Shown here in pieces: positions 25,565 to 29,062 of a stretch of 31,527 nucleotides of DNA. The notes under the pieces were generated by a model, which did no database searches, was not told the DNA's origin, and saw nothing but the letters and a program-made list of their open reading frames with translations. Numbering within the stretch: position 1 is the stretch's first letter; every line of letters begins with the position of its first letter. The stretch spans positions 1 through 31,527 of the IMG/VR virus record IMGVR_UViG_3300008050_000177; one strand, given 5' to 3'. This DNA comes from a virus. The position numbers were made by a program, and so were the translations under genes.

Positions 25565-26200
25565 TTAAAACATTCTTAGTTGAGCCTTGTGCTGCTCTAT
25601 TCGTTTCATTGCTGCGATAAAATAATCTTTATCTAATTCACAAGCAGTTAAATCAAAACCTAAGTTATGACAAGCAATTGCAATGCTACCACTACCAAGA
25701 TGTGTATCGAGTATCTTGTCCCCTTCTTTAGCGTAGTTCATTAATAGCCATTCGTAGAGTTTGACGGGTTTTTGGGTTGGGTGTTGTTTTATGCCGTAAC
25801 CCTTACTAAAATGGTGCATATTAAACCGCCTACAACTGCCATTAAAACTTGTCCATGCTATCTCGAAATCTGCCATGTTATTTGTCCCGTTCATTTTGTC
25901 CCAACTTAACAGGCACCTTGTTGAATCCAAGTAATCAAGAAAGTAATTACCTCCCCAAATTATACGGTTTTTACTTACTCGCTCCAATTCTGTAAAATAT
26001 TCTTTTGTTGGTGTTGCGCTGTCCCATTCCGACCCCTTTATCCCGTTCATGCCTTTCATCATGGAATTTTCAGATTTAACCGTTTTTGTAAATTCCGTTA
26101 CTATCCCAATCCCAAAAGGCGGGTCAACAATAGCCAACTCAAAATGGTTATCGGGGTAACGTGCCATTAATTCCATGTTGTCCTCGTTTGTGATTTTCAT
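25565..26200 (-). CDS. DNA N6-adenine/N4-cytosine methyltransferase, 211 aa
   Basis: Complete permuted methyltransferase of the N6_N4_Mtase family. Motif IV is DPPF (residues 26-29) and motif I is DTHLGSGSIAIAC (165-177), with a TQKP segment near 143-146. The N-terminal 27 and C-terminal 60 residues are nearly identical to the two half genes at the window ends, while the middle differs. The position, between terL and the head-tail genes, is unusual and suggests an inserted duplicate. The ATG follows an A/C-rich leader. It is expected to protect phage DNA; target base and site are unknown. Confidence 0.9.
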   Translation of the reverse strand: MKITNEDNMELMARYPDNHFELAIVDPPFGIGIVTEFTKTVKSENSMMKGMNGIKGSEWDSATPTKEYFTELERVSKNRIIWGGNYFLDYLDSTRCLLSWDKMNGTNNMADFEIAWTSFNGSCRRFNMHHFSKGYGIKQHPTQKPVKLYEWLLMNYAKEGDKILDTHLGSGSIAIACHNLGFDLTACELDKDYFIAAMKRIEQHKAQLRMF

Positions 26201-26211
26201 AGTGTTTTGTT

Positions 26212-27448
26212 TTATGCCCTTTGCCTCCTGCCGTATGTTTTTGTTCTCATTCTGCCCTTTGGTTTTAATCGAAAGGTTGTTTCAATATAGCGCATTGCGT
26301 CAATGCAATGATTATACGCGTCTATTGGGGTGTTTAATTCTTTGCCCTCTTTATCGGTGTCCCAACAATAGTGCCGCAACTCCTCAATGATATTTGTGGA
26401 CCGCTTGGTTACAAGAAACGGGTTTTCCTGCATTACTCCGATTCCAAAGTTAATTGAGCCGGGGCCTTTCTTAACGCCTTTTATGTTCCATTTGAAATTT
26501 TTATGCAAATCTGCAATGTCCTTTGGGGCTGAACTGTCCGCAACTCCTCGGTCTGTTGGCTTTAACCCGGCTGCATTCATCAACTTGGACAATTCCCGGT
26601 TACCCAACCCTGTATTATAAACCAATTCATCATACACCCGTTGCCCGTTGTACTCATAGGCACCAATTACGGTTGTCGGGTCGGCTGTATAGCCAAAATC
26701 AATGCCGTAACCAATCAATTTGGCCTCTGTTGGTAGTCTGTCTATTTTCTGCCAATCGTTCAGGATAACGCCTTGTAATTTTCCGGTCTGTCCAAGGCCG
26801 TAAACGGTCCACCAATTACTCCAAAAATCACTCGTTTTTGCTTTTTCCTTTGCCTGCTCAATGTCGGCCTTTATTGTGTCGGGTAACGCCTCATTGTGTT
26901 TGTATGTTAGAATCAAATGCTCGCTGTCCGGCTCCTCCAATACCTCCGTATGCGCCCAAAATGTTGCCGTTGGGTTGAAATCAATGTAAATGTCCTGACT
27001 GGTTCTGATTGCCAACTGATGATAGGCTGCAAACGGAATGTTGTTTGCCTCGTTTACATACAATACATGCCTCCTTGCTCCTCTTAACTTATCCTCTTGG
27101 TCTGCGCTGAAAAACTCAATAAAGGAACCATTGGCGAAAGTGTAGGTTAAATGGGTTTTGTTCCAACCGTTCGGCCTCATTCGCCCGGTGTCACGCATTA
27201 TTTTTAAAAAATCCTTGATCGCTCCGCGGCGTAAATGTGGGACCGATTCGGAAACAACGGATATTTCGAGGCCCTCAACTTTGGTTGCCCGGTCAATGAG
27301 TAATGGTAAAATCCCGTAAGTTTTGCCGGCTGAACCTTTCCCCCTAACGAAAAACGAAAGGGGGCTAACACGATGTGCCGCCTTGGATTACCTTTTTACG
27401 GGCAACCATTGCGGCAATCTTATTTATTGCTGTTGTTCTTATAAACAT
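26212..27448 (-). CDS. terminase large subunit, interrupted by a 40-nt segment in the Walker A motif
   Basis: The product is the ATPase-nuclease that packages DNA. It starts at ATG 27448, inside the 3' end of the HNH gene: 26 codons MFIRTTAINK... to VIQGGTS, then TGT and an in-frame TAG. Omitting 27331-27370 continues as AGKTYGILPLLIDRATKV, giving Walker A GGTSAGKT (residues 23-30) and a 398-residue protein. Walker B is VLYVNE (115-120, Asn for Asp). The nuclease acidic residues are Asp237 (GIDFGYT), Asp291 (VADSS) and Asp370 (HCIDAMRY). Without recoding, the first ATG after the gap is at 27198, giving 328 residues that lack the P-loop. The rest of the gene is intact. Confidence 0.85.
27331..27370 (-). 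other. 40-nt intervening segment within the terL P-loop: candidate ribosomal bypass element
   Basis: On the minus strand the order is TCG (27373-27371), TGT, TAG stop (27367-27365), a hairpin (27364-27340), AAAGGT, TCA (27333-27331), then GCC GGC AAA ACT. The hairpin arms CCCCCT/AGGGGG and inner CG/CG enclose two U-U mismatches and a five-U loop. TCG and TCA are both Ser and both readable by one tRNA, so they could be take-off and landing codons. A purine run (GGGGGAAAGG) stands just before landing. 40 is not a multiple of three. A +1 frame change before the TAG would also read through and give GKGSAGKT. Confidence 0.6.
27414..27448 (-). repeat. terL 5'-end copy carried by the HNH gene (functional copy)
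   Basis: These 35 bases match 28026-28060 at 30 of 35 positions; four of the five differences are silent and one changes Arg to Lys. This copy begins the terL frame that continues into the terminase, and it lies within the last 29 bases of the HNH frame plus six more. Confidence 0.85.
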
Positions 27449-27998: not shown

Positions 27999-28025
27999 GT
28001 GTTTTGCATGGTTTTACACCCCTTT

Positions 28026-28060
28026 GCAATCCTGTTTATTGCTGTTGTGCGTATGAACAT
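28026..28060 (-). pseudogene. displaced original 5' end of terL
   Basis: ATG at 28060 overlaps the terS stop (TAATG), the spacing expected for the native terL start. Twelve codons match the functional copy at 27414-27448 (MFIRTTAINRIA). The frame then departs and ends after 30 codons, just inside the HNH gene. It is best read as the stub left when the endonuclease gene inserted. Confidence 0.8.
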
Positions 28061-28449
28061 TAATTTACATCCTCACTTGCAATATCTTCTGCATTGCTGC
28101 CAAGGTCCGGGAATAGTGGTTGCTCCTTTATTTCTTGAATCTCAAACCGTTCTGCATAACCTCTGTGCTTTCCTTTTGTTTTCAAGAAAAATATAATACT
28201 GGCAACGTCCCCGGCTGTGATTAATTGTAATAGTTTCCCCTCTACAAAATCAACCCGGGCCTCTAAAATCTCATCAACACTTTCTGCAAATGGTTTGTCA
28301 TTTTCGCACCACAAATAATAACATTTTCGGCTGATTCCAATCTGTTTGCATGTTTCTGAAATGTTACAACTACATTCAAGAAATGCAACCAAGAAATTGG
28401 CTTTGTTTTTATCTGTTCTGCTATTTGCTTTGCTTGGCTTCATTGACAA
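28060..28449 (-). CDS. terminase small subunit
   Basis: The 129-residue protein has a helix-turn-helix (CNISETCKQIGISRKCYYLW, residues about 28-47) and the segment DFVEGKLLQLITAGDVASIIFFLKTKGKHRGY. Both are characteristic of phBC6A51-type small terminases. The N-terminus is basic. It would recognise phage DNA and load the large subunit. A second in-frame ATG two codons downstream is equally possible as start. It overlaps the PLD-like gene by 29 bases and its stop overlaps the old terL start. Confidence 0.88.
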   Translation of the reverse strand: MSMKPSKANSRTDKNKANFLVAFLECSCNISETCKQIGISRKCYYLWCENDKPFAESVDEILEARVDFVEGKLLQLITAGDVASIIFFLKTKGKHRGYAERFEIQEIKEQPLFPDLGSNAEDIASEDVN

Positions 28450-29062
28450 ATTTATTGCAAAAATTAAACATTCCTTCCCGGTCCTCGCTTCGTTCTATCA
28501 TTACATTTTCCCAACGTGGGTTGTTGCTAAGATTCATTGAACCAATGAACGAATAACAACCGGCCTCGGTTTCAATGCAAATAAACTTGGCGTGGTTATC
28601 CACAAAAATAAACTCAACCCTTTTGTGCAAAATATCAATAGCACCCGAAGCAAACACCCATTTGCTGCTATGTAATTTATCCATCACAACAGAAACATTA
28701 ACGGCCGGGTGTGCATTAACCAAATCCTGCAACGCGCCAATCCCTCCGTTGGTTATTGCCCATGTTCCAACCAAAACTGTTTTGATCTTGTAGCCCTCGT
28801 TTATGAAATGCTGCAAAATGTTGGGGCTGTCAAACTCGTTACTAAATAGCATTGTATTATGGCCCGGCTCCATGTCTGCAATGATTCCTTTTATATTTTC
28901 AACGTCCAACTTTATTTTGTCGGCGTACTTTATCCGGTTCTTATTCAGTCGAATTTGATACTTCGCCTTTTTTAGGTCGGTTTTGGTTCCTATGGTTTCC
29001 ACTTGTTCATTGCTAAATAAACCTGTATTTGTTCCAAGGCTGAACGGGTTTTTGTTGTCCAT
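28421..29062 (-). CDS. phospholipase D-like domain protein, 213 aa
   Basis: The C-terminal half carries one HKD-type motif: NHAKFICIETEAG (His157, Lys159) followed by SFIGSMNLSNNPRWEN (172-187). The Asp of the usual motif is not obvious. The GSMN-S-N signature is typical of PLD superfamily nucleases. One motif in a short protein means a dimer would be needed for an active site, as in Nuc/BfiI-type enzymes. It lies directly before terS and could act in DNA processing or packaging, or in defence against host DNA; this is inferred. An A/C-rich leader precedes the ATG. Confidence 0.8.
   Translation of the reverse strand: MDNKNPFSLGTNTGLFSNEQVETIGTKTDLKKAKYQIRLNKNRIKYADKIKLDVENIKGIIADMEPGHNTMLFSNEFDSPNILQHFINEGYKIKTVLVGTWAITNGGIGALQDLVNAHPAVNVSVVMDKLHSSKWVFASGAIDILHKRVEFIFVDNHAKFICIETEAGCYSFIGSMNLSNNPRWENVMIERSEDREGMFNFCNKFVNEAKQSK

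Follow-up and report, generated by a model that had tools for sequence, protein, structure and literature searches.

The 31,527-nucleotide (nt) stretch of DNA analysed here, IMG/VR virus record IMGVR_UViG_3300008050_000177 (positions 1 to 31,527; hereafter the window), carries on its minus strand a gene for the terminase large subunit, terL, that is interrupted within the codons of its Walker A box (Table 1). From an ATG at 27448 the frame reads MFIRTTAINKIAAMVARKKVIQGGTS, followed by a Cys codon (TGT, 27370–27368) and a TAG stop (27367–27365), and it picks up again at 27330 as AGKTYGIL..., running for 372 residues to a stop at 26212. The distance between GGTS and AGKT is exactly 40 nt (27370–27331), and the insert holds the stop, a hairpin, the purine run GGGGGAAAGG and, at its end, a second Ser codon, TCA. 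A first reading of these letters (the original prediction) had described just such a gap, and the arrangement is as it described; its view that no usable start restores the P-loop also holds, as the earliest ordinary start 3' of the gap is ATG 27198, already past the P-loop. The 31.5-kb record contains one terL match only; the prediction had named an intact copy elsewhere as evidence against it. We consider it highly probable that ribosomes bypass these 40 nt of terL in a programmed manner and that the element belongs to a mobile cassette in which a NUMOD4-HNH homing endonuclease gene and the bypass hairpin accompany a replacement for the 5' end of terL. The ribosome would decode TCG (the take-off codon) and be stalled by the stop-containing hairpin ahead; the peptidyl-transfer RNA for Ser would detach and re-pair at TCA (the landing codon), and decoding would restart at Ala-Gly-Lys-Thr to give a full-length terminase.

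The insert is not peculiar to the window. Two further carriers, L014 and L015, were the first to be reached, via a search with the HNH protein, and both have a hairpin at the identical terL codons. Four pattern scans of IMG/VR, with patterns aimed at terL Walker A codons only, bring the true insert loci to 96 (the window and 95 further loci from many metagenomes), among which 55 inserts are distinct; grouped register by register at 88% terL identity, the loci form 32 clusters. Every insert sits at GGTS(A)(G)/AGKT, and the joined product is always GGTSAGKT. Three registers occur, Ser to Ser (which includes the window), Ala to Ala and Gly to Gly, and none of them forms a single clade. In relatives at 53–60% identity (L002–L013) the Walker A box is uninterrupted. 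Of 80 terL loci in an insert-blind sample, for which the search profile left out the P-loop, 77 likewise have an unbroken Walker A box (in L252 as GSSSAGKT) and three have inserts. The insert is a minority state of terL, and homologues with and without it at the same codon, a comparison proposed in the original prediction, are both at hand. Judged by sequence, comparison with the gap-free relatives and with the 95 further insert loci excludes a chance origin of the window insert.

Several searches returned nothing comparable. The pattern matches L128, L129, L141, L143, L146, L149 and L167 were removed as chance. The exact hairpin of the window had no match in genome_contigs (25-mer) or viral_contigs (30-mer), searches whose range possibly excluded the records nearest to the window, and two DNA searches with cassette regions matched, among the rows shown, methyltransferase and HNH genes and not the insert.

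Taken alone, the window terL could be dead or misassembled: it is interrupted, and normal translation stops at the TAG. Covarying hairpins nevertheless occupy the same site in the 95 further loci, the downstream frame is intact, and the ratio of non-synonymous to synonymous substitution rates (dN/dS) is 0.01–0.09 in pairs where dS could be estimated. Such strong purifying selection indicates that terL is in use beyond the gap, and a broken gene or an assembly error is, in our judgement, extremely improbable.

The inserts share a common plan, consisting of the last sense codon, 5–7 nt, a C-run, a stem, a loop, a 3' arm, a few nucleotides, the landing codon and the remainder of GGTSAGKT. The C-run begins 5–7 nt past the take-off codon in 55/55 inserts, the stem usually measures 8–12 base pairs (by an automatic fit whose best solution for the window differs from its folded stem), and the loops are of GNRA type in many inserts (GCAA, GUAA or GAAA). 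Folding of the window hairpin gives a modest gain over shuffled sequences when taken alone (z = -2.07). Covariation was scored on 20 alignable 24-nt cores, a set that leaves the window core outside; 92.5% of cells are paired, double changes occur at all six variable pairs, and one stem pair varies across AU, UA, GC and CG. The covariation score, which is inflated by the relatedness of the sequences, is 0.532, compared with 0.145 +/- 0.030 in shuffles (0/500) and at most 0.16 in slid controls. The number and kind of pair changes, together with the slid control, argue for a real structure.

The offsets between the two parts of terL range from 35 to 44 nt and fall in all three phases (phases 0, 1 and 2 in 18, 7 and 7 clusters, respectively), so a single frameshift or readthrough cannot account for the family. 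A stop in the take-off frame is present in 30/32 clusters; it lies within two codons of take-off in 19 of the 32 and follows immediately in the S-TAA and GCG-TAA lineages. Some inserts also have stops in the AGKT frame itself, immediately ahead of the landing codon, as in ...GD-stop-SAGKT (L145), ...R-stop-stop-AGKT (L097) and ...GNN-stop-AGKT (L083), and likewise in L120 and L127. These stops bear on conventional recoding, in which a +1 frameshift in the window, or stop readthrough in the phase-0 relatives, would rebuild the Walker A box with glycines encoded by the gap. The +1 alternative was part of the original prediction, and it stands as far as the window goes, where no stop closes the +1 frame across the gap and the result would be the P-loop-like GKGSAGKT; many phase-0 A-type inserts, moreover, finish in GGDNAGKT. 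For the family it fails, given phase-0 inserts with stops, phase-2 inserts and the AGKT-frame stops: a separate mechanism would be required for each lineage, glycines arise from any GGGG arm, and neither the match between take-off and landing codons nor the bias towards A in the landing codon would be explained. We therefore regard recoding of this kind as very unlikely.

That match is a general feature of the inserts. Take-off and landing codons agree at bases 1 and 2 in 27/32 clusters, and in each of the five others GCN gives way to GTN. The loci with an Ala take-off codon and GTA or GTT at landing are L256, L257, L263, L266, L269, L274, L276, L278 and L283; the change from GC to GT at base 2 would keep a G·U pair with the Ala anticodon. 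Pairing of the same tRNA at both sites, by identity at bases 1–2 or by GC to GT, is thus predicted in 32/32 clusters, the single locus L098 excepted. The third base is A in 25/32 landing codons and in 3/32 take-off codons (sign test p = 3e-6), and an Ala take-off codon is GCA in none of the 16 A-type clusters, compared with 27/71 gap-free genes (p = 0.0013). This bias would fit a tRNA with U34 that quits a wobble codon and lands on a Watson-Crick codon. The hop from TCG to TCA put forward in the original prediction gains support from these comparisons, since the site, the hairpin plan, the codon match and GGTSAGKT recur in 32 clusters with offsets in every phase.

Codon pairing also bears on removal at the RNA level, in which the hairpin would be excised from the messenger RNA and the ends rejoined, as in a minimal intron. 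Excision would yield GGTSAGKT in every phase, and a covarying hairpin could serve as the processing signal. It would, however, need no anticodon-matched landing codon, and it leaves GTN in place of GCN and the asymmetry at base 3 unexplained; no Rfam family, group I introns included, matches in the window at the gathering level. Some 40 nt is far below the size of known self-splicing introns. The chance that the insert is removed from the RNA appears very slim indeed.

Several points weigh against ribosomal bypass. The stop is the second codon past take-off, not the first, in the window and in many other inserts, and the window hairpin, with two U.U mismatches and the z-score given above, is among the weaker ones. 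In L098 the codons are mismatched (take-off TCG, landing GCA); its near relatives L059, L081 and L084 have GCG, and L098 may be a broken allele, a sequencing error or a tolerated mismatch. By take-off the nascent peptide would have reached only ~26 residues, and a T4-like nascent-peptide signal (KKYK-type) is not identifiable by sequence; the terL N-terminal peptide is conserved in gap-free terL too, so its conservation is uninformative on this point. All carriers found are uncultured metagenomic contigs: the surroundings of three inserts, searched among isolates, gave no match, and none of the four matches of a pattern scan of genome_contigs was true. Finally, we infer both the skipping of the gap and the fused TerL product from sequence comparison, and HNH cleavage specificity for Walker A DNA is a prediction.

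The original prediction did not mention that the open reading frame (ORF) overlapping the terL start in the window matches a homing endonuclease, or that, beyond this ORF, another terL 5' end is located at 28060, which together give a cassette like that of mobA and gene 60 in phage T4. An HNH ORF ends at or overlaps the terL start, as expected 5' of the gap in a mobA-type cassette, in 16/32 inserted clusters, the window included, with all three registers represented. Most scanned HNH proteins contain NUMOD4 and HNH_3 domains, one of them with NUMOD1 too, and that of L134 has no NUMOD4 match. Six HNH loci show another terL 5' end on the upstream side of the nuclease gene, four of them by motif search (the window, L014, L047 and L111) and two by eye in the flanks (L262 and L278); most of these relics end near the Walker A codons, and that of the window is shorter. 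The L014 relic and terS end are ~98% identical to the native sequence of gap-free L182, and the working start of L014 is clearly more diverged. Hairpins near HNH genes in other contexts (L016–L040) were also inspected, and a comparable insert was not seen.

The distribution of the insert on the terL tree is patchy. Insert-free relatives are interspersed among inserted terL genes and close pairs differ; 20 changes of state are needed, at least 13 of them forced by supported branches, in counts that do not separate gain from loss. One pair, L258 (with insert) and L220 (without), shares identical DNA ahead of terL; the two sequences begin to diverge inside the 5' end of the gene, differ strongly at the P-loop and differ in patches further downstream. 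The relics, the identity of L014 and L182, the divergence of L258 and L220 and the state changes on the tree are the traces expected of homing into P-loop DNA, and relics upstream of the HNH gene together with a patchy distribution are what horizontal insertion of a mobA-type cassette would leave. We propose that the Walker A coding DNA is the endonuclease target and that the hairpin, by splitting this target, would shield the phage; such protection would explain the persistence of the insert with or without the nuclease gene.

A bypass that is real but unrelated to the HNH gene has to be weighed against this. The hairpin would then be an independent mobile or regulatory element, and its adjacency to HNH genes would reflect a hot spot or a packaging-type HNH. 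HNH genes near terminases may belong to packaging, and the HNH member is absent from half of the inserted clusters. The HNH proteins found here nevertheless bear the homing-type modules NUMOD4 and NUMOD1, the terL relics mostly end near the Walker A codons, and in the insert-blind sample all three HNH genes in cassette position lie in alleles with an insert or with an AGY serine codon in the P-loop (Fisher p = 0.024). We consider independence from the HNH gene unlikely, though with appreciably more in its favour than the other alternatives. An earlier contingency, which took in any HNH gene within 1 kb (p = 0.0017), was dropped because the HNH of L177 interrupts a terS-like ORF and that of L209 lies upstream of another ORF. 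Upstream of terL in L177, the ORF starting MARPFGTKAIETPEKMW has an HNH domain after the first residues of a terS-like start, and L157 is similar; this arrangement suggests a different HNH insertion, into terS.

The AGY codons may represent a second response to the endonuclease. In the four gap-free genes nearest to inserted ones, the P-loop Ser is encoded by AGY and not TCN (4/4); gap-free terL genes with AGY include L174, L176, L177, L179, L182, L220, L241 and others. Distances to inserted genes are smaller for AGY alleles than for TCN alleles (p = 0.007, uncorrected for kinship), and AGY is found in 1/38 inserted loci collected by serine-blind patterns. L179 has an HNH in cassette position, no hairpin and AGT as its P-loop Ser codon. 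The change from TCN to AGY, a two-base synonymous change, could abolish the endonuclease site, and the pattern is suggestive, but not proof, of target-site escape.

Kinship of terL with Flavobacterium phages, the sole indication of host, points to Bacteroidota as the probable hosts. Taking these observations together, we think it likely that endonuclease-linked bypass cassettes are widespread in uncultured, probably Bacteroidota-infecting phages, in which a NUMOD4-HNH endonuclease would attack the terL Walker A DNA and the answers would be either a bypassed hairpin or recoding of TCN to AGY, the hairpin having become established in three registers across many lineages, with take-off pairing weak and landing pairing of the Watson-Crick kind.

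Table 1 Features at the interrupted terL locus of the window (assignments of function are predictions).
Feature	Position	Strand	Remarks
40-nt insert in terL Walker A codons	27331–27370	-	
Proposed bypassed gap proper (37 nt), flanked by TCG (take-off) and TCA (landing)	27370–27334	-	
Putative take-off codon TCG (Ser)	27371–27373	-	
Putative landing codon TCA (Ser)	27331–27333	-	proposed decoding restart at GCC (27330)
In-frame TAG	27365–27367	-	second codon past take-off
Hairpin CCCCCTTTCGTTTTTCGTTAGGGGG, CCCCCU-UU-CG-UUUUU-CG-UU-AGGGGG	27340–27364	-	stem covaries in family
terL 5' part, ATG to GGTS, 26 codons	27371–27448	-	copy that would be translated
terL 3' part, AGKT..., 372 residues and stop	26212–27330	-	Terminase_3C; PHROG terminase large subunit
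NUMOD4 + HNH_3 homing endonuclease gene, 188 residues	27420–27986	-	overlaps terL start; domain matches
Broken second terL 5' end (MFIRTTAINRIA...)	28025–28060	-	relic upstream of HNH gene
Terminase small subunit gene (terS)	28060–28449	-	weak PHROG matches

Other genes lie close by. An N6/N4 DNA methyltransferase gene is situated directly downstream of the window terL (25565–26200, minus strand), and a similar gene directly upstream of terL in L070, L077, L100 and L117. Before terS lies a 213-residue ORF (28421–29062, minus strand) with no match in Pfam; in PHROG it matches an endonuclease (phrog_16945), but only weakly. In L094, the terL frame downstream of 4240 runs for 671 residues, compared with about 360; near +1071 it matches HNH weakly, which may point to an intein.

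The closest parallel by anatomy is T4 gene 60, which has a 50-nt gap, matched GGA codons, an adjacent stop, a tetraloop stem-loop and the HNH gene mobA on its 5' side, and whose gap may, as has been suggested, descend from an element protecting against the endonuclease (PMC5009743, PMC3014915, PMC11194080). Both systems have a non-coding gap near the gene start that is absent from homologues, a product that joining the flanks restores or, for terL, would restore, matched codons, a stop at or near take-off (in terL, in part of the clusters), a stem-loop at the take-off site, in many terL inserts with a tetraloop, and an HNH gene directly 5'. The terL family thus appears to resemble mobA and gene 60 while lying in an unrelated gene. 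It differs in affecting a terminase Walker A box, in another phage group and with another endonuclease, and in having 32–41 nt between the codons instead of 50; its hairpin starts 5–7 nt after take-off, leaving the take-off codon outside the stem, and it uses Ser, Ala and Gly registers in many lineages, as against one, with no KKYK-type signal identified.

Other reported cases are more distant. In Magnusiomyces capitatus mitochondria, byp elements occupy 81 sites in 12 genes, seem independent of messenger context and tolerate imperfect landing codons (PMC5009743). Like them, the terL inserts are short blocks, presumably untranslated, inside genes, with imperfect landing matches apparently tolerated; unlike them, the inserts keep to one site in one phage gene, as found with patterns aimed at Walker A, and have a conserved covarying hairpin. 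A putative bypass in the terminase of Streptomyces phage Hau3, which we compare by its description only, shares the gene and the suggested mechanism, but its gap is much shorter, tied to a UUA codon, and is not a bypass of a deleterious insert (PMC5009743). For Prevotella loescheii a 29-nt translational hop has been reported, and a review remarks on the lack of follow-up (PMC5009743). That gene, plaA, is also from the Bacteroidota but encodes a bacterial adhesin.

Bypass has been called apparently unique to T4 gene 60 (PMC3014915), and counterparts have long been presumed to exist (PMC5009743). In the literature searched, a body that leaves most subscription journals outside its coverage, we found no published description of this insert family. 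Gene 60 is almost the sole efficient bypass known in bacterial translation and so far the only well-documented case in a bacterial virus, and the interrupted terL genes would be truncated by ordinary gene callers. The 55 natural variants in 32 clusters, with their covarying stems and permitted codon pairs, form a comparative data set for the bypass mechanism. Alongside mobA and gene 60, the terL cassettes would be another instance in which a homing endonuclease goes together with a gap that ribosomes pass over, here in highly constrained codons of the packaging motor.
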